A stretch of DNA of 64,000 bases from Liolophura sinensis. Lineage: Eukaryota; Mollusca; Polyplacophora; Chitonida; Chitonidae. The position numbers and the translations under genes are program-made. The notes beneath the pieces were generated by a model, which saw only the letters and a program-made list of their open reading frames with translations, did not search any database and was not told the DNA's origin. Each line of letters starts with the position of its first letter. Position 1 is the first letter of the stretch. Below, one piece after another: positions 20,805 to 64,000 of this stretch. The DNA is taken from NCBI RefSeq assembly GCF_032854445.1, contig NC_088300.1, positions 21,931,608 through 21,995,607 on the forward strand. Direction: 5' to 3'.

Positions 20805-23800
20805 ATGAAATCCGTCATACTTTTATTTTGGCTTCTTCATTTCATTCACGGCGGAGATGGTACAGACTTGCTGCTAGCGAACACTGGATTCGAACTCTTG
20901 TCGGATTGGGACTGTTCATCATTCAGCTGTGAACTCTCACCACACAGTCATACAGGAACATATGCTTACAGAGTCAGTGGCAGGTAAGTCGCTTTTATCT
21001 AGAAAAGCGGTTCCCTAATTACTACTGCACATTAAAGTTTACTATAAAATGAAGTCGCACGTGTGAAAATCAGGCAACGACCTGAGGATGCTCGTGGGTT
21101 TCCTCCGGGCTCAGCCTGGATTCCGCCCACCATAATGCTGGCCACCGTCGTATTAGTGAAGTATTTTTGAGTACGGCGTAAAACACCAATCAAATAAACA
21201 AGTATCGGTACTATAAAATGAAACTGACAACTGCAACATTATCGGCACCGTTATTTTACTGAAGGAGGCCTCCGTGGCTCAGTTGGTTAGCGCGCTAGCG
21301 CAGTGTAATGATTCAGGAGCCTCTAACCAATGCGATCGCTTTCAGTTCAAGTACAGCTCATGCTGGCTTCCTCTCCGGTCGTACGTGGGAAGGTCTGCTT
21401 GCAACCTGCGGATGGTCGTGGGTTTTCCCCGGGCTCTGCCAGGTTTTCTCCGACCATAATGCTTGAGTACGGCATAAAACACCAATCAAATAAATAAATA
21501 AACAAATTTTACTGAAGCATGGATATCTTTTGTCAGTATATTGATGGAAGACAAGTGGCCTTCAACGCATCTTAGACTGCGCAAACGGCCATACGAGAGC
21601 CATCGACCGCTGACTCACACCAAGGCCTTTCAAGCAGTGAGAGTTGGGAATCCAAAAATTCAGGTTAATTTGAAATGAACATAAACGCTGTGATAAAGTC
21701 AGTCTTATTCACTGCACCGTGCAAAAATATATTCAAAACTATTCATTAATTCTGTTTTAGAATTTTTAGTCGAATTTTTGAGTTGAAGCCTCTTCGTTTT
21801 CTGCACCTTATCTATATACACGTGGTTTAGCTTTATGTTCATGTCTTCCTCCCCGGCCGTACATAGGAAGATCTGCCAACAACCTGCGGATGGTTGTGTG
21901 TTTCCCCCGGGCTTTGCAGTCCGTTTAAATCCCACCTTAATGCAGGCCGCCGTCGTATAAGTGAAATATTCTTGAGTATGGCGTAAAACACAAATCAAAT
22001 CAAATAAATAAATGTATAAATAAATAAATATAGTTCATGTCCTGTATAGCCTTTATTAGTGTCCTTGTTACAATACACAGCAATGGTGTTTTAATTGTGG
22101 AATGCACATGTAAGCTATTTTGATTTTCGAACGTCAGCTCTGTCATTTTGTGTACAACACAGACATTCATTAAAACAGCACTGGCCAAAGCTCTCGCCTT
22201 GATGACCCTGTTCAGACTTCATGATACATCACGTAAAAGTACGCCTGACACGCGGTTTCTGGTATGCAGTTGGTATTTGTTGTACAATTTCTGCGCAGTC
22301 ATTGCACCTCGGTAGTTTTAGGGCCTTTTCCCCACAAACCTCACGAACATGATTCCATGTATAGAATCATCAGTGAGGAACGTGTGACACACAAGTAGTG
22401 GAACTCCCGAAAACGAACAGCTTCATTTTGACTCAGTATTTCAGCATTTTTTTTTTGTTTTGCTATCATCATTAATTTTCTGAAAAACGAAAGCTTCAGT
22501 ATGCAGCATTCTGTTTTGCCATCATTATGTGTACCGGAGTAACATTACATGTTCATTACCGGAAATTTATAACTGGGGTTTGTTAAGTTTATTTCTTCAC
22601 TATAGATTTTAGTACGATTTATAGATTTTCTTCACTATAGATTTTAGGACGAAAATAAGCAATGCAACAAGAGTGATGAACTCAACATACTTTTCATATA
22701 GTCTATTAGGTCTATGTTTTTATAAACATATAAACATGAAGGAACTAAACATGTATTATAGGACTCAGACGAACTCAGTATAGTTTTCATTGCGTTGAAT
22801 AGTTGCTTTTCAAGAGTGTTCAAGAGAAGTATGTTTTTTCCCGAATGGGTAAAGTAAGTACAGGAGTCCATTAGTGTTACCTTGAAAAAAACTTGGTTAA
22901 AACAAAGGGGACATTTCGACTTTTCCCCTCCAAATTTTGACTTTCATATGTCATGCAGCTAGTATCGCGATTAGAGAGCAAACCATGTACCTATACCTTG
23001 CGTATTACTGCATACGATGTCTCTGTGTGTCGTCCGAGTGTGTCACTGAAAGAATGCTGAATGTCGAGAAAAAAGCAGAAATTTCGACTTTTGTTACTCC
23101 CAAATTTTTGTTTCACTGTGACACTAATGGACTTCCGTAAGTAAGCGCGACGAAGCAACCATACGATAATCGATAAAAGAGACACATTAAAAATGGCTTT
23201 CATTGTGTTGAACAGATGTAATTTTGTTTCTTCCATAAACACTAAGTAAATGGGAGAAAAAAAGAAATATACTTGACAGATCAACTGCTTCTATGACTTT
23301 TTAGCAATCCGAACTTACTGATATTCATTTCACTTACTACATACAATCCGAGGATTATTATTATTATTTTTATTACTATGAGTATTTTTATTATTCATTC
23401 ATTATTATCTTTCATATACACCGCGGAAAGACAACACGTACCTCGTATACCAAGTTGATATAGCCCCATAGCTGCTTGAGTTAATATAACTTCGCTTACC
23501 AAGAATACATAATGGTAGTTTAGTAAGTTTGCTAGTTTTTCGCGGTCGTAAATTTTGTTAACCGGGGATGCAAGGGTTTTTGTGCATGTACAGTTGTAAA
23601 TGTTTCATATACTTGCCCTTTAGACCAGCTCTAGATGTCTGACGCAACACTGCGATCTTTGTTTCACTGTTTGCGCAGGACTGACCCTGGAGACGGCCCC
23701 AGTCAGGTTGTGACGGTTACTGAAGGAAGTGTCTACGCCGTGGAGATTTTTGTCAAACTCCTTAATGACAATGGCAAATACCAAACCATCATGCTGTCAG

Positions 23801-26800
23801 CAAATTTTGAAATGACTGCAGGTAATTACATGGGATAGGTGCTCATGGGCTCGCTATTGTGTTGCAGATATTTGAAGTGTTGTAAACATTCCCTTGACAA
23901 ATGGGGCCGTGTGTTCGAATCCAGCTCTAATCCAGATTTGTCTGCGATTTAAAGGATACATGGAAGGTCTGGCTTATCTTTCTTAATATGTATATAATAC
24001 CGAAAATTAAGTATAGCCCGTTTTATTGACGTCAACCTTGATAGCTGTCAAAACAACTTTGTTTGGGGTAAAGCTAAGCTGTTCTGGCGTTCCCAGTATG
24101 TTCATGGATGACGTCATATCCGTATATATCCGACCACTGACAGAAACTGTGCATAAATTAGAGGAGTTATTATGAAATAACTCACTTCATAGTATTGCAA
24201 AACATGAACCCAACTAAATTGTATGATTCCACAGCGAGACTATAGTCCTTTTACCGAAGTCTATCTCCTTTATATACACTTTGCATCGAAATTATCGAAA
24301 CGTCCTCTGCTGTCCCCATTTCTAGAGAACCCACAAAATGCAATTAACTTTTTGGGGGGTTATAGTAAAGCATTTTAAGCGTTTTTTGAAAAACAAAAAT
24401 TACATTTACTTTTACCAGAAGAAAACTTAATATAAATCACGTAAGCATGTGGACCGAAGTTTAAATACTGCATTGGTTAGAAAGAAGTATTATCTCTATA
24501 CTGTATTTCTCATCGTCTTAACATCTATGGAATAGTCGTGGATGCGAGCTAACAATTTGTTGATGCGCCGTTATGAGATGTTCTCTATGTTCAGGTGGTG
24601 TTGAACACAGGCCGATAGCTATACGACAAGCGGCCACCGTGAACTCTGGGTGGATATTCCTGGCAGGGGAAGTCACTGCACCGACGGGTAAGACGATGAA
24701 AGAGAATTGCTAAAAAGTGGAAATGAGTTAAAGCTTCAGCTACAAAGGGACTGCAACGTCGTGGATATTTTTAGGGTACAAACTTACCCAGCTCACCCAC
24801 AAAAAGTAATCACAAAAGCAGAAATGAACAGTAGACTCCACAGCTCGAACTCGAATTACTACATGCGACTTTATAAATATAGAATGGAGTGTGGGCTGCA
24901 TGTGTACAGAGTACAAGTTCATTTTATTTTGATGTTTTGGATCACTAGGTGTGCAGTGGTTGTCATGTTGTCAAGAATATATGCATTTATAATATTTTCA
25001 GCCGGTTCTGTCTCAGTCAGATATCTGCCATCAATAAGCTTTGTTCACATAAACACACGAGTGATTGCATCGGGTCAATGTACAGTCAAAGGGGACCCCC
25101 CCCCCCCCCATCAAAACGATCTCATCTTCAGATCGTCTGCAACGATTTATTTACGTGCAGCCGAAGAGCCATTTGATAGAGTGTTGTAGGGCAGATATGT
25201 GTCATTTACGGACCACCACAGACGCAAAATCAGTTGATTCACAAGCAGTGCACTATTCAAAGACGGTATCACAAATTGTCAGACATCAGTATTTCGCCTC
25301 GGCCCAAACTGCATTCCGCTCCCCAGTAAACCATAAGCCTACTAATACACGCTGTTCAAATTACACATGTACATTTTTTGTCGTTCATGTTAGTGTTTAG
25401 TCGGCATGCAGTTGCTACAAATGTCAGAGTCAGTACAAAATTCATTAGGGATACCGAAGGTTTATGGGAATGAGAAGACGGCGTCTCATCGGACAATGCT
25501 TAAAATTAATTAAATCTTATCACATAATATTTTTTCTCTGAATTTATTAAAGCTGAAGAATTTAAATTTTGCCCCCTGTCTTCCTCGCATTCGAAGGTTT
25601 TTTTTTTGTTTGTTTTTGTTTTATTTTACAAAATACAGTAAAATTATCGAAACGCCGTGCTTAAGCCGAGGTGCTTGACGTCCGCGATAACTAGGTCAGC
25701 ATTGCTCTCCTCAAGGAAGCCACCACTACAAAATTAAAGCATGACATCCTGGGATGGCCGAATGCCTCAGTGGTGCTTAGATTTATTTCCATTTGTGTCA
25801 GGATTGAGCCTGAATCCAGCTGTACAACAATCCATTTGTAATTTTGTAAACATTTAATAGGGGGGCAGAATTACTGGTACTAGCACAAGTCTACGAGGCT
25901 ACGACCTGAACCCGGAATACCCGGCCGCATCTGCAGGGCTACTCGTAAACTGTATAAATGATATAGTAGGCAAACTGTATGAACAGTTTCAAGCAGTGGA
26001 AGAAATAGCCTTCCAGTATGTCCAATTTCCAAGAAAGCTATTTATCACCTGATCCTTCACCGCCGAAGTCCACAACTTTAATCTACCACACGGTACTGCT
26101 TACGGCTATTATACGGGAAAAATACCTTCACAGTAGAGAGCCACAGTAAACGTGAGGTCACCTTGCTGTCGACAATGGAGACGTGCTGAAACTGTGACTG
26201 ACGAAGTTTCACTCGACTTTTACTCCATTTGAAAAAAATCTAAAAAAAAATATGTAATGCCGGTTTAAGATACTTTTTGTATGCTAGTCTTTCAGTGGAC
26301 ATAAACATTAGTTAACTGTTGTCTTCCACTGCAACGGTGATAACACAACGTTTAATTATTTTGGCTATAAAGACTCATTGCATTGCATTGCATAGCAGGT
26401 GAGTAGAATCGATCGACGGACTTTTTAACGAAACACCTTTTTTTTGCTAGCTTTCAGCAAGTTATGGCATAAAGTTTCTCTGGAGTTCTCCTTTAACAGT
26501 ATTTTAACTGTTGCCAACGAGAGCGTAATCCGATGGCCACGCACTCTGCTGGACAGAACATCAGTCAATTATTCTCCACCGTGAGAAAATTAGGAATATT
26601 TTCTAGTGTATATTTAATTAGATAGGATACGATCCTGTCATTTCCCCCCAGTTCTTATCATTCTGTCGTAAGTGGGAAGATCGGCCATGATTATAGGTGC
26701 GTTGACCATTTCCTCCCACCCGATCGTGTCCGCCGTCGTATAAGTGGAATATTTTTGAGTACGGCGTAAAATCACCAATAAAAAAAAACAAACAAATCTT

Positions 26801-29625
26801 AACTTGCTGTTTAAGCTATACGTTTATAATGATGAATACAGGATTGTCAGCGACACAAATCATCGTAGAGGGACCGGAAGTTGGAGTGGAGTTCCTTGTA
26901 GATGACGCTCAGACGACCGAGATTGACGTCTCTTTGGCCACTTGGGAGGCTGAGGCTAACGCACGGATAGATACATTACGGAAAAAGTTAATAAATGTCG
27001 TGTAAGTCAAATTATTACCTTATACGTTAAATTTTCCATGGGGAAATAGGAGTTCGCTTCCTTCAATGTAACCAATTTCCGCGGGCTATGTCTGGTTTCC
27101 TTGCACTACAATGCTGATGGCAGTCGTATAAGTCAAACATTCTTGAGTATACGGCGCAAAACACAAATAATAGAAATGGGATAGATCACTAGACAATTGG
27201 CTACATATAACACACCCTGGCTTCCAATCTTTCGTAACCTATGGGGTTTCTAGTTCGAATCTAGCTATCGTGTGAACTCCTCCCTCGTTAAACCAGTCGA
27301 GTACTCAATAAAATACTTCTTCAGAAGAATTTTGAAGAGAAAGTGAAATATTATCGGCTAATCAAATACTGGAATAAACCTGACAATTTAAGTGTAGCTG
27401 TTGATTCTTGTTTGTGGTATGCAGGCAAACTAGTTTACAATTAAATTAAGTTAATTTTGTATAAAATTGCGCTTAAAGCTCTTCCTTACTTGTTTCTATT
27501 TTGCATGGTACTGACTGCTTTCAACCATGCACATAACCATACATTATTTGATCCAAACAGATGACAAATTTTCAAGAACTTTGTGACGTTTCTGTTCTTT
27601 AGAGTACACTCCTGGGTGGACGCGGTGGACCCCAGCAGAATATCAGTGGAAGTAAGCATGTATTTTGTTGCTGATAGCATGTTTTATTGTAAATGTATTT
27701 TTCTTGGAGACGTTTTAATTTTTATTTGCTTATTTCTTCGTGTCTGAATGTCAGGAATTATACAACCATTTATGCAGAAATGTGTGCTATAAAAATGAAT
27801 CGAATAAAAAGCTAATGTACATGTATAAAAAATTATAATAAAACGTTAAACTAAAAAAAATTAATCTGTTACATTTAACAGAAAGTCTGTTGTCTGAGTG
27901 ATGCTAGAATGTATTCTACTAGTGCAGGCAGGTTGTTATAATAGCACATATATTCTATTAATTCAACATACATGCAAGTTCTATTAAACTAACGGGATAC
28001 TATGTTGAATATGAAATAGTGAATACATTCTAGCATCACAGACAACAGACATTATGTTCAAAATTGACGGATTAATTTTTTGAGTGTACAACGCATCATA
28101 TTCTCATGTATATGTACTGGACTGCTATTGTGTATACGTCTTGAAGATTTGGGACCTTGCCTTATTAGAATAATTAATAGAAAATGTTCACTGACAGTCT
28201 GAATATGTTGTATATTAGAAATTAAAATATACTGTCAGAATTACCGAAATAATTCCAAGGACTTGTTTTAAGGATACCGTTTATTTTTGTGTTGATTAAA
28301 ACAGGCCTGCATACAAAAATTATAAAAATAGACATAAACATTATCTTCCAAAATCTGGCTGCAGAAGGTCTATATCTACAGCCTAGAATTTATATTCCCA
28401 TAAAGGACAGGCAATGCAAACCTTTGTCTTGTAAAGACAAATTTCTATGACGACACTATGCACTTTTCATATTGTTTTTGAAAACATTGTAAATTAGAAA
28501 TGATAAATAGGTCTTTATTACTGAAATTCGAAGCAATGGAGTAGATATATAGGATTTTTGGTAACAGAAGTCAGAACAAGTGGCTATGAAATTTATCGTT
28601 CTCGTATTAATTGCATCGACTCACCCAGTTAAACAATCCACTGACGTTACTTTTCATCACAGTGGTGAAACTTTTCTTTTGTCTAACGTAGGTAGTGCAG
28701 GTCAAGCACCGTTTCCGTTCGGGGACTGCCGTCGTTGCTGACATCATGGCTGCCTCTGACGAGGGAGTGGCTCAGGAATATAGGGACTTCGTGTATGATA
28801 ACTTTAACTGGGGCGGTGTTGGAGACAGATATATTGTGGATGAATTTAGAGAAAACTAAGGTGTGTCATTATAATATTAAAAGGGATTGATAAACCATCT
28901 TTTAACAGTAACCCAGCCGTTTCAACTGTTGAATCGAACAAGCCGAACCAACACTTGTCATGCTTTGAGTTCGAACTTCCGCCAAGTCCCGGTAAGGAAC
29001 CCGCTGTCCGTTTGAAAGAAAACCTGTTGACAACGAAATCCAAAATACTATAGTATCCTTAGATTTGAAGGTGCTAAAAAACGAAAAAAAACAACAAATA
29101 AATTCATAACTAAAAATTATGTTGGAAGAAATTTCGAACAGTCAGCAGGTACCTTGCCGCTACTTGGTGAAAGTTCGAATTCAAAACATGGAGGACGTTG
29201 ATTTGGCGTGTTCGAATCAAAAGTTTGAACAGCTGGATTACTGTTGAAAGATGGTTTACCAATGCTGGCTTTGGCATAATTACATTTCGGGCGTTTTAGG
29301 GAATCGGTGGCTACCAAGGTAAGGTAGGATTTGAAGCTGTTATTTTTACGGTAGGAACGTGGAGCTTAGCTTTGGGCTATTGGTCTATTCACTTCTGCTG
29401 ACTTTTAAAGTCTAGGCGTCGATACAAGCATAAAAGCAAAGTTCCAGAGATTCTGAACAAGTTGCTCATATTTCCTTACAAGATGTGACTTTTGTAAAAT
29501 TCAAGAAAGTTAGTGTGGTGACTATATCCTTGACAAGCAAGTTCTTGTGATGTTGATCAAAACACACTCATGACCTATCAGACGGTACAAAAAGACGATA
29601 TATATATATATATAATATATATATA

Positions 29626-29680
<55 letters not shown>

Positions 29681-32600
29681 AAATATATATATATATATAC
29701 CCCATACGCAAAATACTTCGAACCTGGATTTCCCACTGACAGTGCTGACGCTCTAACCCTTTTAACCTACTGAAGCCTTCAACGGAACTCTCACATGAGA
29801 GACAGCATTTTATCCTAACAAAGATCTTTGAGGTAAATACGATATTACAACTCAGACACCAACAACGTCCTCTATTTTTACGCAAGGTTTTCAACTTTTC
29901 GTATATTTCGTACTCTGCACATGGATTTACTTCCATTGAAAAGAAGAGCACAAGACATACCTTGGCCAGTCTTCATTATGGTATTCCGGTGACCAAAAAG
30001 TTATAAATATGTCATCATTGGGACTGACCTGCTACAAGACGACACCCTAGAGATTGATCGAAGTAATGCTGAAAGAACTTTAACCGGAAGAGAACAAACC
30101 TTGGCTACTGAAGAATGAAGGCTAGTAGACTTTGATGATTTGATTGGTCATTTGAGCAATGAAAAGGCACAAAGTACAAACTTACACTTTCTTTCGTTAC
30201 AGCAAACTTTGATGATTAATTGTCCTCTGAGCAATAAAAAACGTACAAGGTACAAAATTATACTTTGTTTCGTTTCAGCAAACTTGATGATTAGATTGGT
30301 CACTTGAGCTATAAGATGTAGAAAATATATATGGGCATGATGGGAAAGGTATGAATGGCTGAATGCCGTTGGTAAATTGTGCCAATCTGAATAATGCTCT
30401 GCAACAGTGTTAGGATGTGTATCACAGGTTGTACTCAATTGTACATCGTGTAATGCGCTACATCTTTCCGTCAAAAACAGCCAAACCATTAAAACAAAAA
30501 TTACATCATGTAAAAATTTTGAACGTTGTATATGACCATCTTGTCAGCTTCGCCCATGCAGTAAATCTTCTCATGTGTGTTATATGTCCTCTGTCTTCTG
30601 TATATGTCCTCTCTGTTACACACTATGATAAACCGAAAGAAACCCAATCACTGGAATCACGGCGACAATTTCCAGTTATAATGTCATTAAGTTAATGAAA
30701 CTGAATATAATGGGAGTCTTGCGAACGAGCTACACAGACGATCCGAATGACAGTAGGACGTTTTCTTCTGTGAAGCTGCAGTGCGTGCGTACTTCATATC
30801 TTTTTTATCAGCACACAATACCGATAATCGTGACGTAATAAAGAAAGAACGTAATAAAGTGAATGAGTTCACAGTTTTGGACCGTCTTGATACAGAAGGA
30901 AAAGGCTTTTACAAGTGTCCCTTTATAGACTTACAGCACAGAGAGTAAAACCAGAGCAGGGACAACGGTGTGAGAGTTACGTAATGGGTGAAATACGCCT
31001 CATTTCAGTTTACCTCAAGTTTTTTTTAACCACACTGATCATGTAAATGGTTGAATAGTAGCAAATTGTTCGCCCCAAGCACCATGGCTTAAGAAGAATT
31101 AGATAAAAAAAACATGCAGCAATTCATAAGACGTCACTGGCCTAGAATTATTTAAAATGCTGTGTTGTTCTGGTGTTACCTATTACACGTTATACTACTT
31201 CCCTTTGTGCTTTTCAGGGGAACGTGGACTATACCCTAGCGGAGACGGCCATTCGGAAACATGAGAGCACAAGGGTATAGTGTTGGACTCTAATTACCAT
31301 TAAATGTATTGTTATAAACTGTCCCTCACTGCTTGCATTAATATCATGATGGATGCACCTCTATTAAATAATGCCTGTAGAGCCAACATATTATGAGGCA
31401 CCTCTATTAAATAATGCCTGTAGTGCCAACATATTATCCAACGTGATAAGTTGTGGTTTCGTCTAACACTGGAATCTAGAATGCATAAAAATTCACTTGT
31501 GAATTTCAGCAGAGATGAACCGAATTCGCATAGTGATTTGCCTTAGTCAACTGAACACTTTTAACGGGTTTAGAGTTATTAATACGCCTAAATTATTTCA
31601 AATTCTTTCGTCCATCACATTCTGAGAGTTTATGGAACTAGAGTACCGTTGTAATTACTTTTAATCCAATTTAAGAGGTAAAAACCCTCGACACTGAACA
31701 TTCCACTGCATATCATTACCATTCTTTATCACATGCTGGTATATATTACTAAAGTCATTATTTTGTCTCAAAGGCAATATTAGTCTTGTTCACGGATTGT
31801 TGTTTTTTGTTTTTTTTTTTGTTTTACCGGTGTAATTAATGATATGTTTTGTTACAAAGACAAAGAAACTGTTCCCTGTTTAAGATTTGTATGCAAGTGG
31901 TTTTGATAATTGTGATTTACAGTGCTATCGGATATACAATTTTGAACATCAGGGTTAGTCAATAATGCTGTGTTTTTCAGACTCCAAATCCATGGCGACA
32001 ATTTGCTGTGGGGATCCTCAGAGGCTTTTGTTCCCCCATGGGTTCCGCCCATGTGCACTGTTGATATCTACTCCGCGACCATCAATCATATAAGAAACAC
32101 CGTCAAGCACTTCCGGGAAATGTGAGTATCTGAAATCCGTTTGGAAGCCCGTTAAGACTGTTGTCACCTGAGCAAGCGATGGAAGCGCTTTGTAATATAT
32201 CCGTGATAATAAATTCTCTCACAATCATAATAAGTGATTGATGTGTCCATTATTTTATAAATGTTTCGACAAAAAGAGAGCCAAGATATACCGACTGTTT
32301 AAAGAAGAGGTCAAAATTGCCTCGGGTATGTGGAGAATAATAATCTAATAGTGTTATTATCAGAGCCGTGTTTGTTTGAGTGCACATATCGCTAAAGCGT
32401 GACTGGCAACATTCTTCATTATCTTATTTGCTTGCCCAACAACAGGGAGTATTGGACTAGGAGTACAAAGTGTATGGAAATATACATCGTTATGAATTCC
32501 TTAACGGGTTCGACACTTGATACAGCACATTAAAGAAGCCATTAAAACGACTGGCTGCTTCCAGTTTCCAGAATACACTTAAAATACTAATCTTGACAGA

Positions 32601-35600
32601 AAGTATGTTGTCTGAGTGATGCTACGATGAATTCTGTTATTATAAGAAAATATTTTGTCATATTCAACAGAATATTGCTGGTCTAATAGAATTTTTTGTT
32701 CAAATAATATGTGTGTTATATTTATCAAAATAAACTGCTGCAATAGCAGAATACATACTCAGACAACAGACTTTCTATTACATTTAACACATTATTTTTT
32801 TCAGTGTATTCTTGTCACCCATAAATCTAATATTTCGCTCAACATAAATCTAAGCGTCAAAACCGGCAGGCATTCGTATACCAGCCGTCAGCCAAAATGG
32901 TCAATCGGGGTCAATAATCGCCGGATCAATTTTCCATTACAAAGTTCAACACAAACCACTTGAGAACTAAGAAAGTATATACAAAGTACAGGTTAGGTCG
33001 GTTTCAAATGTGAGATAAAAATATTCATTCTGCTTTGAACGAGATATTTGGTGCTAATTCTATTAATGAAAAATGACGCGCTTGAAATTTTTACATTGGA
33101 TGTTACTCTTTTTATTTGTTTCCGTTGAATGCTTAGTTTTATATGCAAATTTGTTGCAAAATCTTTGAAGTGTGGACCTATGGGACGTCAGCAGTGAGTT
33201 GCTTCACGGAAATTGGTTTGAGAAAAGGCTGAACGAACCTCGATTCTCTCAGATGGCTTTTCGATTGGCTCGGAACTTTGATGAAGATGTCAAATTAATT
33301 CTTAACGATTTCGATGTGGTTGCTGAAGGAACATACACCGAGGTGAGTGCAACATATATCCCAGTCGAATGACACGTAAGATTCTAACATCAGTAATATT
33401 GGCACTACCTTGCTTGGTGTACAGCATATTTGGAATAGGCCAAGTACTGGTCGAACCGGTGTCAGCATAATGTGACTGTGTGGAGCGTTGTGTCCGATGT
33501 CTTCGTAATGACGTCCCCGTGACTAAAATACTAAAGAATTTAACTGATGTTTAAACGGAACTAAATGGTATATGCTAAGTAGTAGCTAATGTGAACTTTC
33601 CACAAACATCTATAACTTCTCCAAGTTGTATCCCTACAGGTGTCCCTTAACGTATGTTTTGTGGTTCTCGTTGCAGAGTTATCTTTCACAAGCGTATGAT
33701 TTTCTTGCGACCAGAACTGGGATTGATGGTTTGGGAGCTCAGTGTCACTTTACGTCTGAACCTAACCCTATTTTGATGAAGGTAGGAGCTTACGGCAAAT
33801 AGTTATTCCCTTATTAATTTCTGGAATAAACTCAATGGAAATTAACTGATTGTCACAGATACCAAATCTTCGGTTCCTTTGATATAACCAAGAGTTGTTA
33901 CATTAACAACGGGAAACATCTCTATGCTGACAAGAGTTATGAGATGACAAATTGCTATTGAATACTAAATCCCTTTATTTATTACTAGTAACGTCCCAAA
34001 CGAAGTAGATCCAAGCAGATAACAAAGATTCCTTACTACAAGCTATTGAAATCTACATCGAAACCTCTTCATCAATTATAGAGGAGGTAATCATCCTCAT
34101 AAGTATCAGCTTACTTCATCCAGTCATGTCTTGAAAGTCCCTAAGGTAAAATAATACAATTATCATGCTTTATCCCCATGTTGTTCTACACTAATAAAGT
34201 CGTAATCAAAGCAACCACACGCATTAAGTCTACATCGATCAAAAGCGTGTAAGCCCACAGCAGCGGGTGGCAGTTAGTCCATAGTCTTTTGGAGTTAAAA
34301 TTGTGTTGAGTCTTGAGTACACACGCGACACAACTCTTCGCTGAAATTTACATGAGAACTCTTCATTCTTGCTGAGTCATTCATGTTGTCTCTTGGAATA
34401 AAATCAAATCTGAAATCGAGATGGTGTCGAGACACGGGCCAGAGCAGGGCGGGGAGAGATTCCATTAAGACTCAGCACTCGTCTTGATGTCGTAATTTTG
34501 CGTCCTCGATGTAATTTCGTTTTCTCGAATAAGCACCGACCAAGTCTTGACCAAAACTCTACCAAATCTCGTGCTCTGTTTTGATGATCGAATCCATCTT
34601 TTCTGAATAAAATGTTAATAAACTCTAATTAATCCTAAAATATATAACTAACTACCTGCCACTTATGCTCACGTAATTATCCGAGTCCTAGTTGTGTGCG
34701 CCAGATGGAAATGGATATGATTACGAAATCGTTTGGCATATTAATCTTAAATCAATTCTGGACCAGAGTTCGAAGTTGGGAAATTCACGAGTCTTAGTTG
34801 TTTGGACGACAATCCGACATGATACCAATTTATTGACAGGTAGCTTGCCCTATAAACGGAGGGGAAACATACATGCATAACTCAATTGCCATTGGCCTTG
34901 TAGGGCAATATATAGTGAGATTATTATTAAATGATTCGAGAACACAAATTGAAAGTTTATCTTTAAACTGAATTCTGATAAAATTCCCATGGTATACCTT
35001 ACAGCGGCGCCTTGACCGCCTGTATTCTGCCGGGCTGCCAATATGGGTGACTCAGCTTGAGGTTGTCTCCGATGACGTAGACGAGAGGGCGGGCTGGTAC
35101 GAGACGGCTTTACGGCTATTGTTCTCGCATCCGGCAGTAGCGGGCATCACAATATGGGGCTTTTGGAGCGAGGAACATGATTTAGGGGAATCCGCAGCGC
35201 TGGTCTCCGGAGAAAACTTCACGGTAAGACTAAAGATAAAAGACGACAGCACAGAAAGTAAACCAAGAGCAGTAACAACAGTGTGATAGTTGGCAATTGG
35301 TCAGAGGTAACCGGTGAAACACTTACAGGGTAGCATCCTACACGGTGTTCCCATTAGTTAAGCAGAGTTCGATTAATAATGTGCAGTGATGTTAAGTACC
35401 ACGACGCCATCAAAGTAAACTTTAATAATGCGGTTTCGATTAACAGAAAGGAATTGTTTTTGAAACTACCGCGCTTGCCAATAAGGGAAACTGGAGTGCA
35501 ATTTTCCCCCACAAATTCTTATCACAATTGTTCATAATGAGCCATGTTTGTGATAGAGCAGATTAGAAATTAACAAACGCGTACAGTGAGGGAACAGTTA

Positions 35601-37330
35601 CGTTTCTGTGGCAATAGGGTACCTTTTCCCTGCATTGGCAACTCGGGTTCAAACTGAACTTACCATTGTTCCCTGGTAATACATAAGTGTTACGTTACCG
35701 GTTATCGCACCGAACCTTCGCCCGAAGGCAGGATTGCACGATATTTAGTTATTTATATGGTTGGTGTTTTACGGCGTACTCAAGAATACTTCATTTAAAC
35801 GACGACAGTCAGCATTATGGTGGGAGGAAACCGGGCAGAGTCTGGAGGAGGACCCATGAACATCTACAGGTTGTTGGCAGATCTTCCCACGTACGGCCCG
35901 AGAGGTGCGAGGCTCTTGGGTGGAGCGCTTACCTCCTCAGCCCCGGAGGCCTCGGAATGAACAACAGAGTATTACTTTTGGCCCGCATTACTTTTGGCCA
36001 GAAACATTCCTTCTTCTGAACTTTGCTCTTCTCCAGTTTTCTGTACCTATTCATTATCAAACAGTCGCTGTATGAAATCTGGATTGTTTCAGGGGTTCTG
36101 TTTAAAGATAAAGAAGCTTTGAAAGGGAAGTCCAACACATGAATGGCATTCTGACAGCATCGTGATGCCATAATCATAGAGTTGATGTGGAACAAAACAG
36201 CATTTTTCACTCCGAAATTATGAAAATCAACTGACATCATATGTCTTAGTACTATAAGCGAATGGTGTATACTACGTTCACTGAAAGCTGACCATGAAGA
36301 ACCTATCGTTTTTGTTGGCATAGCCCTATGTGTTTGCTCACTGTTGTCATAGTACACTAAAATAATGGGATACCTTCCCCGCTCTAAACTGAGGTCTCGG
36401 CGGATTTTCCTGTCACTATATGGCGCTGAGGTTAATTTGGATGTTACAAGACTTTTGTTGTTTGACGTCAAACATGTAGGGTGCTGTGGATACATCTATG
36501 ACGGGCATGGCCTACTCACTGTGATGTATCGCTGTTGATGCAGTGAAACAGTGTAACGTTTTATGTTACTAAAATGATAATACGTCCCACTCCCGGGTTT
36601 CTGTGCGTATGCCATTGACCTTTGTTCGCTTGTCGTGCATGAGTAATACGTCACCAGTTTACCCACAAAACGTCATCACAAAGGCGTGAATCAACAATGC
36701 ACACTTTGGGCTCGAATTAATTTAGGTGGGAAAGAATTCCCATTTCTTGTATGTTTTTCGTGGTAATACAGTTGACTCAAGCCAGTATTGTTATACACTA
36801 TCAGTCAGATTATACCATTTCCGTGATTGTTTGATTGTTAGGTGTTGATCATTCATACTCAAAACGTACCGACCTTATTCAAGCTAGACAGGTGAACTCG
36901 CCATATTGGTAGAAGACACGAACGCAACGTGTCCTATATGAACCGTTTCAGGACTCGATTATGCTACCAATATTGAGAACATTAAATTTGTCTTTTATTT
37001 GTCGTGTGTGTGGCATTGTCGTATTTATGTTTTTCTTTTTGGTCATAATGATGATTTTTAGGTTTATGGCGGCTACTTGGATTCTCTTGTTACCTTTGTC
37101 AGATTAACGCTGCCGGAGAGCGCTTCGTTGACCTCATTCACAATGAATGGTGGACCAATGATACGCATGCGCTGTCAGACGGAGACGACTACATGCTTCA
37201 GGTTTTCCAGGGGGACTATGTCATAACGGTCAAGCTGGACGGGGCAGTCGAAGAAACAAAACAGTTTACTGTGGGTGATGTGGACATGTTGGTCAACTTG
37301 ACCGTCACTGTGGATTTAACTCCTCCGTGA
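20805..37330 (+). CDS. GH10 gene A: CBM4_9-GH10 protein, nucleophile lost, two frame disruptions (pseudoenzyme or young pseudogene)
   Basis: Exons by alignment to genes C and D: 20805-20983, 23679-23821, 24595-24687, 26842-27001, 27603-27651, 28692-28860, 31218-31274, 31981-32121, 33171-33342, 33677-33781, 35005-35223, 37103-37330. All have AG/GT boundaries. It encodes a signal peptide (MKSVILLFWLLHFIHG), a CBM4_9-like domain (exons 1-4), a GH10 barrel (exons 4-11) and a C-terminal beta domain. The acid/base segment reads WDVSSELLHG: Glu is kept (33196-33198) but Asn is replaced by Ser. The nucleophile segment reads VTQLEV: CAG (Gln) at 35053-35055 replaces Glu. Exon 6 is 169 nt against 168 in C and D, with one extra G in a GGGG run near 28810, giving TAA at 28857-28859. 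Exon 7 is 57 nt against 56. Read literally the product stops after about 263 residues: a secreted carbohydrate-binding module plus a barrel fragment. Confidence 0.8.
21075..21201 (+). mobile_element. SINE family 1, 3' part
   Basis: This is the 3' half of the dispersed SINE: a GGATG.TCGTGGGTTTCCTCC block, CCACCATAATGCTGGCC, then GAGTACGGCGTAAAACACC and an AATAAA-rich tail. It lies in intron 1 of gene A, just upstream of a full copy. Confidence 0.8.
21266..21510 (+). mobile_element. SINE family 1, near full-length with tRNA-like head
   Basis: The head carries an RNA polymerase III A box (TGGCTCAGTTGG, 21275-21286) and a B-box-like AGTTCAAGTAC (21344-21354), as in a tRNA-derived SINE. It is followed by the conserved body (TGCTGGCTTCCTCTCCGG, CTGCGGATGGTCGTGGG) and the tail TGAGTACGGCATAAAACACC with AAATAAATAAAT. 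It lies in intron 1 of gene A. Confidence 0.88.
21843..22030 (+). mobile_element. SINE family 1, 5'-truncated copy
   Basis: The body begins at CTTCCTCCCCGGCCGTAC and runs through the CTGCGGATGGT block to TGAGTATGGCGTAAAACAC and an AAATAAATAAAT tail. It lacks the tRNA-like head. Intron 1 of gene A. Confidence 0.82.
26665..26797 (+). mobile_element. SINE family 1 fragment
   Basis: Truncated copy ending GCCGTCGTATAAGTGGAATA, TTTTTGAGTACGGCGTAAAA and an A-rich tail, 45 bp before exon 4 of gene A. Confidence 0.75.
27072..27172 (+). mobile_element. SINE family 1 fragment, degenerate
   Basis: Retains CGCGGGCTATG.CTGGTTTCC, AATGCTGATGGCAGTCGTAT and TTCTTGAGTATACGGCG, with extra bases in the tail motif. 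Intron 4 of gene A. Confidence 0.65.
27880..28055. mobile_element. Palindromic MITE, copy 1
   Basis: Starts AGAAAGTCTGTTGTCTGAG followed by TGATGCTAGAATGTATTC and ends with the reverse complement (GAATACATTCTAGCATCACA, then GACAACAGAC). It is about 176 bp with roughly 30-bp inverted ends and no coding capacity. A related element of nearly the same size lies at 32598-32776. Both are in introns of gene A (introns 5 and 8). Confidence 0.8.
28884..29275. repeat. Inverted duplication of an unidentified coding-like fragment
   Basis: The left arm (about 28884-29012, read on +) and the right arm (about 29133-29275, read on -) encode similar peptides: both contain GKPSFNSNPAV or DKPSFNSNPAV, then SN.PNQ, then CFEFEL.PS.GK.PA. 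The two arms converge toward a spacer of about 120 bp. Conservation at the peptide level suggests a duplicated piece of a real or transposon gene. I do not recognise the family. It lies in intron 6 of gene A. Confidence 0.65.
29599..29699. repeat. (TA)n microsatellite
   Basis: About 100 bp of almost pure TA dinucleotide repeat with short interruptions, in intron 6 of gene A. Confidence 0.95.
30131..30345. repeat. Degenerate tandem repeat, about 77 bp x 3
   Basis: Three successive diverged copies begin TTTGATGATTTGATT (30131), TTTGATGATTAATTG (30209) and CTTGATGATTAGATTGG (30285). Each is followed by a GAGC(A/T)AT block and a TACAAA.TTA run. Intron 6 of gene A. Confidence 0.7.
31082..31175. 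mobile_element. Decayed partial copy of the fold-back element
   Basis: CACCATGGCTTAAG, an A-rich run, CATGCAGCAATT, GACGTCACTGGCCTAGAATT and ATGCTGTGTTG appear in the same order as in the reverse complement of 18280-18385. This is therefore a second, unlinked copy of part of the element at 17583-18509. It sits about 40 bp upstream of exon 7 of gene A. Confidence 0.7.
31356..31440. repeat. Tandem duplication, 43 bp x 2
   Basis: CACCTCTATTAAATAATGCC...CCAACATATTAT occurs at 31356 and again at 31399 with a single-base difference in the sampled core. Intron 7 of gene A. Confidence 0.9.
32598..32776. mobile_element. Palindromic MITE, copy 2
   Basis: Starts AGAAAGTATGTTGTCTGAG and TGATGCT; ends CTCAGACAACAGACTTTCT, the exact inverse of the consensus start. 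Length is about 179 bp, matching copy 1 at 27880-28055, while the centre is diverged. Confidence 0.8.
33420..33525 (+). mobile_element. SINE family 2 fragment (possible)
   Basis: CGAACCGGTGTCAGCATAAT, GTGACTGTGTGGAG and GTGTCCGATGTCTTCG resemble the body of the copies at 37575 and 48575. Both ends are missing. Confidence 0.5.
35745..35935 (-). mobile_element. SINE family 1, minus orientation, head truncated
   Basis: On the plus strand it shows the inverted tail (GGTGTTTTACGGCGTACTCA), then GACGACAGTCAGCATTATGG, TGGGAGGAAACCGGGCAGAG and TTGGCAGATCTTCCCACGTA, the reverse complement of the full-length copies. It lies in intron 11 of gene A. Confidence 0.85.
35936..36495 (-). other. Hypothetical 188-codon open frame (unsupported as a gene)
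   Basis: A minus-strand frame stays open for 188 codons from an ATG ending at 36495; its last codons run a few bases into the SINE at 35745-35935. It is the longest continuous frame in the window and its composition is not low-complexity. I recognise no domain, signal peptide or promoter. It lies inside intron 11 of gene A on the opposite strand. It could be a fragment of an unknown transposon or a chance frame. Confidence 0.2.
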
Positions 37331-41773: not shown

Positions 41774-42060
41774 GAAAATATACTATCAAGGTACGGGTCA
41801 ACCAGTGTCTGTTGTCGAAGGCCTCTTGTATCACGTGCAAGTCTGGGTGAAAATGTTGAACGATAAACAGCAGCATCCAGCATATAGGGCTGATGGTGAA
41901 CAACATTCTCAAGAACGATACGTGTATAGGTGGTCCTGTCTCATGTCAGAAGCAAGGTAATTCCAAACTGAATGCTTCAACTAATGCCGTCAATATGTTT
42001 CCATTTTGTATACAAATGTAGAGAAAAACTTTAGTTTGCATAGATATTTTTATTTAATCT

Positions 42061-42200
42061 GACTGCCACAGGTATAGGCATTCATTCTGACCGCAACAGG
42101 TATTTGCATTCATTTTGACCGCCACACGTATTTGCATTCATTCTGACCGAGACACGTATTTTCATTTGATCTGACCACAATAGGTATTTGCTTTTCACAT
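42061..42200. repeat. 28-bp tandem repeat, about 5 copies
   Basis: Units of the type GACCGC.ACA.GTATTTGCAT begin at 42061, 42089, 42117, 42145 and 42173, in an intron of pseudogene B. The last unit runs into a 32-bp stretch that is found again at the exon 4 duplication junction (42816-42847). Confidence 0.85.
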
Positions 42201-42690
42201 TGGACGATCTAAACTGTTACAGTTTTCAATTTCCTTCAGAATAAACATGACTGTTACAATGTATTAAATGGCAAAGGCCATTGCTGATTACGTACATGCA
42301 CATTATCACACCGTCTGATAAAGTACAACTTTTTCATCTTTAGATATAAATCTCTACAATACGATATCAGCGCCGGTTCCTGTTAGCACATAATATGGCT
42401 GGGTCCTCTTGTCTGGAGAAATCACCGCTTCGTCCTGTAAGTAGCCTACCTTCGATTTTTATAAAGATTCAAGCGTTCGTTAATTCGGAAGTGGAAAGGT
42501 GCTCGAAAAGTCGCAACCTCAAGTTTTAAGATGAAAATCCACTCCAGCTTATTCAGCTTCTGTATTAATTCAATACGGAGTTTCCAGTTTTATAGTTTTC
42601 CATAACAAACAGTTATTAACTGAAATGCCAGTAATCTTCTGGGTGTATGACTGATTGCCCTGTGTCATTTGTGCCTTTGTAGCTCTGTCC

Positions 42691-43004
42691 TAGTGCAGAA
42701 GCTATATCCAAGGTCCTGACCCCGGCCTTGGGTTTCTCGTGGACGACGCTTTCATGACTGAGATGCATGTCAACAACAACAAATGGGTGGGAGAGGCAAA
42801 TGCCAGGATAGACAAGGTATTTACTTTTCACATTGGACGATCTAAACTAGTGCAGAAGCTATATCCAAGGTCCTGACCCCGGCCTTGGGTTTCTCGTGGA
42901 CGACGCTTTCATGACTGAGATGCATGTCAACAACAACAATTGGGTTTGAGAGGCAAATGCCAGGATAGACAAGATGCGGAAGAACAACGTCAAGTAAGAA
43001 ATTA
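42691..43004 (+). repeat. 157-bp tandem duplication of exon 4 in pseudogene B
   Basis: TAGTGCAGAAGCTATATCCA begins at 42691 and again at 42848. Both copies carry the VDDAFMTEMHV-coding segment of exon 4. Only the second copy keeps the 3' end of the exon with a donor. The junction (42816-42847) consists of GGTATTTACTTTTCACATTG and flanking bases, closely matching 42183-42215 in the preceding intron. Confidence 0.92.
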
Positions 43005-43075
43005 AAAATGAAATTTTCCTTTAGCCTTATTCATATAATATAATGATGTCAAATTATTTGTCAAGGCTGCGTTAT

Positions 43076-43205
43076 ATTTATTTATTTGATTGGTATTTTT
43101 ACGCCACACTCAAGAATGTTTCACTTACACGACGGCGGCCAACAGTGTTGTGAGAAAAAATGGGGCAAAGCCTGGGGGAAAACCACGACAATCCGACTAC
43201 ATTAT
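43076..43205 (-). mobile_element. SINE family 1, minus orientation fragment
   Basis: TTATTTGATTGGTATTTTTA with CGCCACACTCAAGAATGTTT, CACGACGGCGGCCAACAG and GGGGCAAAGCCTGGGGGAAA correspond to the reverse complement of the family body, upstream of exon 5 of pseudogene B. Confidence 0.8.
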
Positions 43206-44941
43206 ACAGTTTTCAGCTATGGCTTGGCAGTGCTTCAGTAATATGGAGAAGAGAAGCAGGCCTCAGTGATATCAGGAAGACTTTTAATGCGCGGAATCGA
43301 CTTCGTAAAAGTCCGTAGAATACATGGAGAAAGAATTCGTCCAATTACATTTGCTGTAATCAACTTGTCGTTGTAGCTGACAATGGTGACAAGGCGAAAA
43401 TTTCCCTTGAAAGTATTAACGATCTGACAAAGACAATGTTGCCTTCAGACTTTGCAATTCAGGGTGACGACTGACAGTGGTGTGGATGCTAAAAAGTTAC
43501 GGGAAATTCACTATTCGCATATCTTCAAATAGCGTCGAAACTTTCATACTTTGATAAAAGCACTTAGAAAAAGTAACGGTTTCAGATATTGAACGAATGT
43601 ATTATTTATTTTTTCAGATTACACAGAAAAATTGCTCATTTCCGTTGGGGACAGTTGTAAACCCTTGGACCAAACGAGGAGTATCAGCAGATTATTACGA
43701 CAATTAGAACTGGGCGGTGATCGAGAGTGCCATGGAGTGAACATACTGGAACAAAGTATGGTATTTAATGCCTTTAGTGCCTTTTTGCTGCATGCAGCCA
43801 CCTGCTTTACCAGTCTATTTACATCATGTGCGTGCACCTTCATCTTAATTTCTTCTTTATTTTGCTTGCATTGTTCATTCGTGTCCGTATATGGTTTGTG
43901 GCGGACATCATTCAACTGAATGGACATTAACCAACCAGCCAGCCAACAAAAAATAGTGCCGTTTGGCGTTTAACCATCCCGTGAAACGTGTTCCCAGAAT
44001 ATACAAGCCCACGGCAAGTCATAAGGCTCTTTGGATAAAAGAGTGTGTAGAGGAGATGTTGTAAAGAGCACATTATAAGAACAAAAATTTGAATTCTTGG
44101 ATATGGCGTTAAAAAATAAACCAAGGCTTTTTTCATTAGCAGTTTGGAAGAAATTAAGACTTTATTGTTCTTTTATGACGAATTGTTAAAGTTGAATGTT
44201 TCTTATGAATGTAAAATTGAAGACATTCTTTCCGGGTCACTTGGACAATGTCACGTCTGAAAAGGCGATACGACATTTGAGGAGTCACGGTTCGGTCGTT
44301 TATATAATTGTACCTTTAATATTGTCACGCAGAACCTGAACCTTTTATCAGTGTAACTGCTGACTATATCTGTAAGCACACCAACGCGAATTCCAATGTT
44401 AGTCTATTTGTAAAAGCGCTTTCTTCGATTCCAGGGTTGCTCTGTTACGTTCATCACTTTAGATCTTCACCTAAACCAAACAACAAAAATGGAATAGTGT
44501 TAACTAAAATAGAAGTTCACAGCCTATCGGTTTATTTATAAAATCAACACACATTGTCGCTGACAATTTCATTATGCACAATAAAACCTTGAAATGTGTC
44601 ATTGTAGGCTAATGCATTCATACAGAGTGCTGATGCTTATTAGTATGTTCTTCCTGTTCCAGACTGAAGGTTAGAGGTCATAACCTTATTTGGGGCGCCT
44701 CGGCAACTTGACACTGAAAGTGGTTAACTCCCCTACCAGCAAGTGAGAACAAGGCTGAAGTCAAGAAACACATTCAAAACTTAGTTACACGCTCCAAGAG
44801 CTTGTACATAAAGACGATATTGTAAGCAATAGAAATATACTTTTTGCAGGGGAAATCTCACTTAACGTAATTTAATGCGCATATAATATAGAAACTATTA
44901 CAATATGCTTTCTTGAAATATGCACGCCTTGTATAAGCTTT

Positions 44942-45025
44942 GTGAGTGAGTGAGTGAGTGAGTGAGTGCATGGGGTTCAACGTCGTACCTAAACAATTTT
45001 TCATTCATATGACGACGAAGTATAA
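44942..45025 (-). mobile_element. SINE family 2 tail fragment with (GTGA)n
   Basis: A (GTGA)6 run is followed by GGGGTTCAACGTCGTACCTA, CAATTTTTCATTCATATGAC and GACGAAG, the inverted 3' tail seen at 46625-46700. The head is absent. Confidence 0.75.
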
Positions 45026-46624
45026 ACTTTGTGGATGAAACATTGTCGTACTTAACAGTATCACCTAATTCTTTCACAGGGATTATCAGATCAAAAACAG
45101 CTTTTGTGTTGTAGAGCAGAACATTGGGACGTATTCAACGGGTTACTTCACGGCCACTTCTACGCGAACCAATTCCACGATACGGAATACACCCGGAAGA
45201 TTTTCCGATTGGTCCGGCCCTACGACCCGGATGTCAGGGTGTTCCTCAACGATTATTACGTCGTCGCAGGAGGCGGCTACACGCAAGTTAGAAACTAACA
45301 TTTTATGTAGAGTTTTTTTTTTAAATCATAGAATAATAGAAGTTTGATGAGTCTTATGATCAGGCGGATTATGGTATTCTTCTCCACTTTCATACAAGTG
45401 TTTTCATTAATCTGTACTTGATAATCTATACGTTTCAGCAAAAATATTCCCACTTCATGTTACCCATTAACCAGCTTGTGTTGGTAGCCTTGGTCACAAA
45501 TCTTAATGCTTATTAAATGTGATTATATAATGTGGGTACAATCATCTTATTCATAGGCCTACTGACCCCACGGGACGCAACACCCGTCCTTGGGGTTTAA
45601 TGCCACCAGGGGGCATATTTATCAAAAGTCTTAAGACTTAAGGTCAAAAATTCAAACACAGCTAAGATGATTTGCTCTAGGAGACTTTGTACATTGATAC
45701 TATGCTACAGAAGAGTGTACCAACCGTAATTTGGTAATTTTCTTTCCTGTTCTGAGTTTGGCTTATTAAGCACTTACATTTAAGTCTAAATTTTTTGATA
45801 TATACGGGCGCAGTTCTTCATTTAGGCCTACTTACGATAAACCGTTCACTGTTGTGTTTTCTTCTCACCGTGCCAGTGACATTTATTCCTTGTATTTGCT
45901 TTCTGTTTTAAATAGGTTAACTATTGAATGACCTGAAAATGGTGTATACCGGTACACTATTATTCAATTCAGTTTAACAAGATGGATGAATATTAGAGAT
46001 AATTAACTTCCACCGGCGTATATACCCCAACGCAAGGATTTCAAAACGTCGAATACGCACATGTGAGTCATGGGCGTTCAATGTCAGTTTGATTCACCGC
46101 CAATTCCTATGTTAATTAAGGTAAACCACTGATATACACTTGGTGGGTGATTTCATACAATTAACTGATTCGTGATTAACATAAATTTTCTTTGATGAGA
46201 GGGATTGTGAGATCAGGCCTATAGATTCAAGCTGTTGTCAGAGTAAAAGATAAACGCACTCAATGCCCACAGACCCATGGTACAATAGACACAACCACAA
46301 ACATTTTAATCGATGAATTACGTGCAGTCATCAGGTATGTTCATATTTCATCAATTATGTTTACAATATACAACAATGTATATAACTTGCACTCAATATG
46401 TTGTAATGCTTATTTTATGAACTAAGCCGACATTTACTGTACAGTGTTTTTCAAATTTTGAGTCATTACATAGCATTTGTGTGATAATTGGCGAAAATCA
46501 TCGAAACGCATGTCTGTCCTAAAAAGGGTTTTAGTAATAATAATGCAAATTCGCTTCAGCAAAGAGTTGACCGTCTGGCCTAAGCTGTAGTGCCTTTATG
46601 GGTAACAGAGGTGGATGTGATGAG

Positions 46625-46987
46625 AGAGTGAGTGCTTAGGGTTTAACGTCGTGCTCGACAATTTTTCAGTCATATGACGACGAAGGAATTCTTAGGGTGT
46701 ATGTGATGTGCCTCCTTGTTGCAGCGCGGATTTCCACCGCTGTTGGAAATCTAGTGCTGCTTCATTGAAATGACTTACCGGTAAGCCGCCCCGCCCAAGC
46801 GGGCCATTATACTTATACGGGTCAACCAGTCGTTGTATTATCCTAAATATATCCTATATCTTCATGCTCAACGTCAAGCGAGGAAATTACAACTTCCTCT
46901 TTTAAAGTCTTAGGTGTGACTCGACGCAGAATTGATCACGGATCTACCGCTCCCGACCAACCAACTGTGCTATCCGGCCGGTCTGGG
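46625..46987 (-). mobile_element. SINE family 2 inserted in exon 11 of pseudogene B, with target-site duplication
   Basis: Exon 11 is continuous with gene C up to TGTGATGAG at 46616-46624, is then interrupted, and resumes after a second TGTGATGAG at 46988-46996. These 9 bases form a target-site duplication around a 363-bp insert. Read on the minus strand the insert starts with a tRNA-like head (GGATAGCACAGTTGGTTGG, then TCCGTGATCAATTC) and ends with CGTCGTCATATGACTGAAAA, ACGTTAAACCCTAAGCACTC and a short TCACTCTCTC tail. This is a precise retrotransposition footprint. Confidence 0.92.
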
Positions 46988-47595
46988 TGTGATGAGCGAT
47001 GATGAGCATCAGAGGGCTGACCAAGCTTACTGGATGTTATTTTCGCACCCAGCGGTAGAGGGCATCCTGACTTGGGGTTCCTGGAGCAAGCATCGCTGGA
47101 GAAGAAACGGCGCGGCCCTAGTGTCAGGGCGAGATGTCAGGGTATTTCCTTTAGGCATTTTACCGCAAAGTTGAAGTCAAGATCAACCATAGATGAAAGA
47201 CTTTTCATTTTAAGGGAGTTAAAAGTAATAATCAACTAAGAAATTTTGCCGTTTAAAAGATTTATACTCAGAAATGCAAGTTTTGTGTTTTATTTTTAAA
47301 AAGTCAAATTAAATCTGAAACCCGGCAGTCTGTTTAGTCATGTATTGGCCACTGAAACCGCTACATATGAATGAGGGATGCAAAGCATGTCACAATCAAA
47401 ATGGTTGTCTGGAAGATGTCTACAACGTGAACAAAAGGTACTTTCTTCTCGGTCTACTCAGTTTATTTCCGGCTATTACTGTCCTGTTACTACAAATTTC
47501 GAGTAACAGTAAAAGATGGATATGGCCCGTGGCAAGTCAGTGTAGGTCTCAGAAAAATAAGACAACGGATTTAGCTCACCATTCAAATGTGATCA

Positions 47596-55500: not shown

Positions 55501-55685
55501 TGAACAAGGAATGGCGGACCGATGACAGCCGTCCTCTCTCAAATGGTTCCTCCTACACGGTTCGTGGTTTCCATGGGGACTATGAGGTGAAGGTCAAGGT
55601 CAACGGACACACCGTGCAGACAAAGCAGATGATTCTGGGGAAAAGTGACGTGAACTTAAATTTAAACGTGGAAGGCGGTCATTGA
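49530..55685 (+). CDS. GH10 gene C: secreted endo-beta-1,4-xylanase-family protein, complete, 12 exons, 564 aa
   Basis: Exons 49530-49702, 49923-50065, 50924-51016, 51451-51610, 51867-51912, 52217-52384, 52681-52736, 53055-53195, 53449-53620, 53957-54061, 54960-55178, 55467-55685 join in frame (1695 nt) with AG/GT borders. Residues 1-18 are a signal peptide (MTLWVVTLLTVIVTLVSA). Residues about 19-165 form a CBM4_9-like module (GFETLSDWNCW, W.HLSGE, FLVDDASMTE). The GH10 barrel follows (RIDKIRKSNIHVKV, FDNYNWAVLEN, LFLNDYDVV). Acid/base is Glu336 in WDVNNELLHG (53474-53476) and nucleophile Glu436 in WATELDV (55008-55010). The WGFWSEHHW segment closes the active site. Residues about 485-564 are a small beta domain (VRGFHGDYEVKVKVNG). 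The motifs resemble plant-type GH10 more than bacterial ones. The usual RGH before the LIW motif is RGT here. Predicted role: extracellular cleavage of xylan-type beta-1,4 links, probably digestive (inference). Confidence 0.94.
50615..50782 (+). mobile_element. SINE family 1, 5'-truncated copy
   Basis: CCTGCGGATGGTCGTGGGTT, TCCTCCATGCTCTGCCTGG and CGTCGTATAAGTGAAATATT lead to TTGAGTATGGGGAAAAACAC and an AAATAAAT tail, in intron 2 of gene C. Confidence 0.8.
54867..54903 (-). mobile_element. SINE family 1 tail fragment
   Basis: TTTATTTATTTGCTTGGCGT followed by TTTACGTTTTACT matches the inverted 3' tail only, 57 bp upstream of exon 11 of gene C. Confidence 0.55.
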
Positions 55686-63696: not shown

Positions 63697-64000
63697 GTTA
63701 AGAAATGAATAAAACAAACATAATCAAATATGGTTATAAGACATACAGCAGAAAAACCTTAACCTTATATGTGAGCATTTTTGTATTATAATTTCATGAC
63801 AAGCGAGCGGCAACGTCTTTTGGTACAAGTACATATATCGTACTACTATACATATATCATTTGATCTGATCACGTGTCCTTCGAAACTTGCTTCTCATGA
63901 ATTTACAGAATGTTGTTAATTTGTACGAACGGGACGAATGTTTTTCATCACATCTGTAGAATGACCTTTAACATTGTGATGTCACGCCAAACGTTTCTTT

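Follow-up and report, generated by a model that had tools for sequence, protein, structure and literature searches.

Gene A, one of four adjoining glycoside hydrolase family 10 (GH10) genes in and just past the analyzed window (64,000 nucleotides of the polyplacophoran Liolophura sinensis), is probably a GH10 pseudoenzyme that was maintained for a while after the loss of catalysis and has become a young pseudogene in this assembly. It would have begun as a secreted-type CBM4_9-GH10 paralogue. GH10 catalysis would have been lost while selection still maintained the gene (pseudoenzyme phase), and two one-base length changes would have broken it later. By its sequence, gene A belongs to the GH10 family. 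It lacks residues expected of active GH10 enzymes and, in its assembled form, the intact frame of a living pseudoenzyme.

The genome (609 Mb assembly; the window is located on contig C6) was searched with PF00331, the gene C protein, and the gene A protein. Besides the four adjoining genes A, B, C, and D (Table 1), GH10 exons were detected at nine loci on C6, C8, and C9. The models of the twelve exons come from a frame-tolerant alignment to gene D, whose alignment to the solved chain 7d88 extends through the C-terminal exon. Gene A comprises 12 exons, and all 22 inner borders are canonical (11 AG acceptors and 11 GT donors). The CBM4_9 profile PF02018 matched exons 1–5 (E 1.1e-9, 39.2 bits, cut-off 25.9) and the GH10 profile PF00331 matched exons 8–12 (E 1.8e-25, 90.3 bits, curated cut-off 22.1). 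Not a single stop was found across the 558 aligned codons.

Table 1. Exons of gene A and extent of the neighboring GH10 genes (positions are those of the window)
Feature	Position	Strand	Observation
Gene A exon 1	20805-20983	+	Start codon, hydrophobic signal-peptide-like start (by eye), beginning of CBM4_9
Gene A exon 2	23679-23821	+	CBM4_9
Gene A exon 3	24595-24687	+	CBM4_9
Gene A exon 4	26842-27001	+	End of CBM4_9, linker
Gene A exon 5	27603-27651	+	Short exon
Gene A exon 6	28692-28860	+	Start of GH10 barrel; frame break near 28812-28815; Asn68 and Lys71 lost
Gene A exon 7	31218-31274	+	57 bases vs 56 in C and D
Gene A exon 8	31981-32121	+	His104 equivalent is Asp
Gene A exon 9	33171-33342	+	Acid/base Glu retained, WDVSSE
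Gene A exon 10	33677-33781	+	Gln228 and His230 equivalents retained
Gene A exon 11	35005-35223	+	Nucleophile Glu replaced by Gln; Trp308 equivalent is Asp
Gene A exon 12	37103-37330	+	C-terminal extension, stop codon
Pseudogene B	41778-47141	+	Stops and frame breaks; nucleophile Glu kept, acid/base Glu replaced by Gly
Gene C	49530-55685	+	12 exons, free of stops and frame breaks; both catalytic Glu residues (nucleophile, acid/base) retained
Gene D	56854-64000	+	Exons 1-9 inside the window, exons 10-12 past it (L001); free of stops and frame breaks

The codon in the nucleophile column of gene A is CAG (35053-35055), located inside an open frame (35005-35223) that is flanked by ...TTACAG and GTAAGA. 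The first-pass annotation had contrasted VTQLEV in gene A with ATELDV in gene C and VTEVDV in pseudogene B. All three motifs were recovered (WVTQLEV; WATELDV, 54960-55178; WVTEVDV, 46560-46628), and the Asp two residues past the nucleophile column is Glu in gene A, as had been read. Glu occupies this column in 10 of 10 other modelled paralogues (C, D, E, F, G, H, I, J, K, and L) and also in both decayed copies (pseudogene B and the L010 copy), which leaves gene A as the only one of the 13 loci with Gln; the animal GH10 sequences compared are the loci of the window's own genome. Prokaryotic relatives were fetched with the patterns HWDV[NY]NE and WGFW[SN][QE][HAD]H. Since these patterns omit the nucleophile column, the survey is unbiased there, yet it is biased at the acid/base residue and at Trp300. 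Glu was present in 44 of 44 readable relatives (45 fetched) and Gln in none, so that the replacement of the nucleophile, proposed at first reading, withstood both the re-reading of the sequence and the comparison. The solved chain most similar to gene D in the alignment is 7d88. Compared with it, chain 7d89 has both this Glu and that of WDVNNE replaced by Ala, in keeping with a catalytic role of the two residues.

A retaining GH10 enzyme is not expected to function once its nucleophile is missing. In the available part of PMC6163442, GH10 mutants with Gln, Ser, or Cys in place of a catalytic Glu are called inactive, which backs the earlier expectation that gene A should not hydrolyse xylan. 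The laboratory Glu-to-Gln mutants used for ligand crystals carry the same kind of substitution, but as engineered single changes. We infer that catalysis is abolished in gene A.

The loss extends beyond the nucleophile. The available part of PMC6163442 lists 13 conserved residues of the −2 and −1 subsites in GH10. Motifs served to map 12 of them, consistent with the solved-chain alignments (TmxB numbering; TmxB itself was not aligned, and Gln111 is unmapped). Six of the 12 mapped residues are absent from gene A: Asn68 is replaced by Thr, Lys71 by Leu, His104 by Asp, Asn152 by Ser, the nucleophile Glu259 by Gln, and Trp308 by Asp. The Asn68 and Lys71 positions are downstream of the exon 6 break, and their residues were read in the post-break frame. 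The equivalents of Glu67, Trp108, Glu153 (acid/base), Gln228, His230, and Trp300 are retained. The acid/base Glu is present, but the Asn preceding it is Ser (WDVSSE), and the RGHN motif reads HGDN in exon 8. In the paralogues, losses are fewer: D, E, F, G, and I contain 12 of 12 listed residues and H all nine that are readable, C has lost one (His104 to Thr), K two (Glu67 and Asn68), L two (Glu67 and Trp308), and J Asn68 and Trp308, with an alignment gap at Glu67. Lys71, Asn152, and Glu259 are lost in gene A alone (H is unreadable at Lys71), whereas two of its four −1 losses affect positions that vary elsewhere, namely His104 in C and Trp308 in J and L. Of the features that mark active GH10 enzymes, gene A thus lacks the T-E nucleophile motif and half of the mapped −2/−1 residues. 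Exon 11 had been described as otherwise well conserved; this holds for its overall identity to D and C (62–64%), but not for the active site, where further residues are lost outside exon 11 and one inside it. A lectin-like role had also been suggested. As a property of the xylan cleft it found no support, because the −2/−1 sugar contacts were lost together with the nucleophile; binding via the CBM4_9 domain or another surface is possible.

The frame disruptions noted at first reading were confirmed in the assembly, where exons 6 and 7 each show a length change of one base. Exon 6 has 169 bases instead of the 168 in gene D, and the change adjoins a G run. Because exon 7 has one base more than its counterparts, its frame fails to join exon 8, which needs two bases carried over. 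Exon skipping was considered as a rescue and rejected on the exon lengths (169 and 57 bases), as dropping exon 6, exon 7, or both leaves exon 8 out of frame. Since the frame is broken, a full-length product is not expected from the gene A haplotype as assembled. In this assembly, gene A thus combines features of two classes: it is an enzyme homologue without the residues needed for catalysis, as pseudoenzymes are, and it carries lesions blocking a full-length product, as pseudogenes do, instead of the intact gene of a pseudoenzyme.

Second copies of gene A were searched for in its own genome. The DNA around exon 6 gave a single match, which was exon 6 itself. For the DNA around exon 11, 40 of 317 candidates were scored, and the matches among them were exon 11 itself, a dispersed repeat, and partial matches to C and D. 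Within the intron past exon 11, a segment of about 60 bases (35237-35300) matches many contigs, where it occurs in tandem arrays with a spacing of about 81 bases (C9:415743-416769 and C13:2717017-2717949) or 48 bases (C11:30945727-30946064).

Codon analyses covered all twelve exons for A, C, and D, exons 3–12 for E, F, and I, 2–12 for L, 3–12 without exon 5 for J and K, 5–12 for G, and 7–12 for H. The decayed copies B and L010 were excluded. Under the one-ratio model, omega was 0.097 (exons 4–12, eleven genes). An omega of 1 forced on the gene A branch was rejected (2dL 48.2), and over the branch as a whole gene A has therefore not evolved neutrally since the paralogue split, as a pseudogene of that age would. 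Because synonymous change was saturated (pS 0.74, A vs D), the omega of gene A itself is poorly determined, and it was indistinguishable from the background (0.0975 vs 0.0969, branch at its bound). When a neutral tail was added to the gene A branch (three site classes), the best gain was obtained at 0.1 substitutions per site (2dL 3.0), and tails of 0.35, 0.5, and 0.8 fitted worse than a zero tail. A tail of about 0.1 was thus the best one, though not clearly, and it is longer than the absence of stops allows. The codon models are compatible with neutral evolution over a brief recent period.

Simulations of neutral decay started from gene D and used seven tail lengths with 4000 runs each. For a tail of 0.03, the probability of no stop was 0.09 and that of losing at least four of the eight −1 residues 0.002 (eight runs); for 0.05, the values were 0.02 and 0.01, and for 0.1 the probability of no stop was 0.0008. 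The product of the probabilities for no stop, at most two frame breaks, and at least four of eight −1 losses reached at most about 1.2e-4 over the seven tails, with the probabilities treated as independent and an assumed indel rate of 0.05 per substitution. This value suggests that the purging of stops and indels was, most likely, still under way when the active site was lost. The view of the first-pass annotation that the Gln change is older than the frame breaks is favored, indirectly, by the simulation and the codon models, and an order in which the active site was lost first and the frame later appears the most likely one. The gene A protein would then have had a non-catalytic use before the break. 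The likeliest uses are guesses: carbohydrate binding via CBM4_9, or a decoy function beside the active neighbors.

The alternative that gene A is an ordinary pseudogene, which was never a pseudoenzyme and into which Gln and the other active-site changes drifted neutrally after gene death, is unlikely in our opinion, although several results speak for it. Gene A carries two frame breaks, the family is known to decay (pseudogene B, the L010 copy, and single lesions in E, F, and H), and a neutral tail near 0.1 fitted slightly better than none. In addition, the active-site losses are not significantly enriched: of the 73 columns invariant elsewhere, 58 are kept in gene A, and the losses affected 3 of 8 active-site columns vs 12 of 65 others (p 0.35). 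However, zero stops in 558 codons make a neutral phase above about 0.05 substitutions per site improbable, a phase up to about 0.05 is too short for the many active-site changes, and the exon borders are kept.

Relative-rate tests (12 comparisons with two partners and six outgroups) revealed 46 to 96 unique amino-acid changes in gene A vs 20 to 31 in C or D (p 7.6e-3 to 4.2e-13). Fourfold sites leaned the same way as the amino acids in 9 of 12 comparisons, but more weakly (sums 121 and 87). The fast amino-acid change of gene A also fits relaxed constraint. J, K, and L, in which the nucleophile is kept, exceeded D as well (91, 105, and 75 changes vs 23, 18, and 26) with G as the outgroup, which is perhaps not a true outgroup for these three genes.

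A living pseudoenzyme would be obtained if the one-base changes were errors of the assembly or alleles confined to one haplotype, with an intact allele encoding a full-length non-catalytic GH10 protein. One of the two changes adjoins a G run, and gene A is otherwise intact. The scored matches did not contain a second copy of exon 6 or 11, hence no other haplotype was comparable. As a measure of assembly accuracy, seven tandem mitochondrial copies arranged head-to-tail on contig C99 were compared over 5984 columns (41.9 kb). Their substitutions are confined to an AT repeat, and the copies do differ by short length changes, one 8-base loss and one 2-base gain, which lends this explanation some support. 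None of these changes is of one base, though, and two changes per 41.9 kb correspond to a probability of about 0.003 that gene A, with its 1674 bases, would contain at least two, if nuclear accuracy is similar. Heteroplasmy might also be the source of the mitochondrial length differences. As exon skipping does not restore the frame either, we give little weight to a living pseudoenzyme. The 8-base loss lies inside COX1, which reads with code 5, near its end and shifts the frame. An eighth mitochondrial copy, on C632, was left out of the comparison; most of its 50 substitutions fall within the repeat or next to it.

A re-tooled enzyme, in which the new Asp at the place of His104 or substrate-assisted chemistry replaces the nucleophile for a new substrate, is highly improbable: the acid/base Glu and the equivalents of Gln228, His230, Trp108, and Trp300 are kept, an acidic residue was gained in the −1 subsite, and amino-acid change is fast, but the equivalents of Asn152, Lys71, Asn68, and Trp308 are gone as well and the gene is broken as assembled.

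The neighboring genes and paralogues display several peculiarities of their own. In the tree, the placement of gene A next to C and D is weakly supported (50). Exon 4 of pseudogene B is present twice (42703 and 42860; region 42703-42991), and its exon 11 is split into two pieces (46560-46628 and 46983-47141) overlapping by six residues. Gene C reads RGTTLIW (53059-53196) where the other copies read RGHN or RAHN; judged by eye, its change from His104 to Thr could stem from two nearby, mutually cancelling length changes. The synonymous divergence between C and D is low in exon 11 (54960-55178; L001:1118-1336), with a pS of 0.19 vs 0.61 in exons 8–10, a pattern as a gene conversion patch would give. 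One lesion each was found in E (L002/L011, exon 12), F (L003, exon 11), and H (L009, exon 12, a stop). J shows a break where exon 4 ends, which may be an alignment effect. A weak match to the GH10 acid/base exon was detected at C8:20514325-20514456 (43% identity over 44 residues, E 0.003).

Gene A shares the PF00331 family and the equivalents of the acid/base Glu, Gln228, and His230 with GH10 xylanases, but differs from them in the nucleophile Glu and five further −2/−1 residues. In the part of PMC1945033 that was available, Gln is described in place of the catalytic Glu in the insect IDGFs and in three of six oyster GH18 proteins. Like gene A, the GH18 chitinase-like proteins (IDGFs, Ym1/Ym2, and the oyster proteins) have Gln at a catalytic Glu and are duplicated animal glycosidases, and they are thought to be lectins (PMC1945033). 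They belong to another family, however, and have lost the proton donor, whereas gene A has lost the nucleophile. Their genes are intact, unlike the broken gene A.

A second parallel is found in leaf beetles, in which GH45 copies with a replaced catalytic residue had no detectable activity according to the excerpt of PMC6509783. LDE9 and DVI4 resemble gene A as members of a multicopy animal family of plant-cell-wall enzymes with a replaced catalytic residue, but these are GH45 proteins that were expressed and assayed. The third parallel is PsXLP1, an inactive GH12 paralogue of PsXEG1 that was shown to act as a decoy for an inhibitor protein (excerpt of PMC8960721). As an inactive paralogue beside an active one, it might be a model for the use of gene A; it is an oomycete GH12 protein inactivated by a C-terminal deletion, however, and an inhibitor partner is known only there. 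For GH10 itself, a study of an apple-snail genome reports an expansion (accessible part of PMC13336756), and animal GH10 was probably inherited vertically (accessible part of PMC6011409). Titles and abstract openings among the matches listed from the open-licence PMC literature did not mention a natural non-catalytic GH10 protein. In the text obtained from PMC12508864, 'pseudoenzyme' stands solely within a reference title, and the inactive proteins in the portions seen of PMC8960721 and PMC8431085 are of GH12, GH45, and GH18, none of GH10.

By analogy to the chitolectins and PsXLP1, gene A might be the freshly broken copy of a selected nucleophile-less animal GH10 protein, with intact Gln orthologues at work in relatives. 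This is a tentative extension of the preferred pseudoenzyme-then-pseudogene history, possible rather than probable. For example, such a protein could soak up dietary xylanase inhibitors beside the active genes C and D.

The inactive glycosidase-derived proteins in the cited literature belong to GH18, GH45, and GH12. An animal GH10 case, if true, would mean that in a duplicated xylanase the loss of the chemistry can precede that of the gene. Relatives allow a direct test of the proposed sequence, active site before frame. Counts of xylanase genes in such genomes may include copies that are unable to cut xylan.
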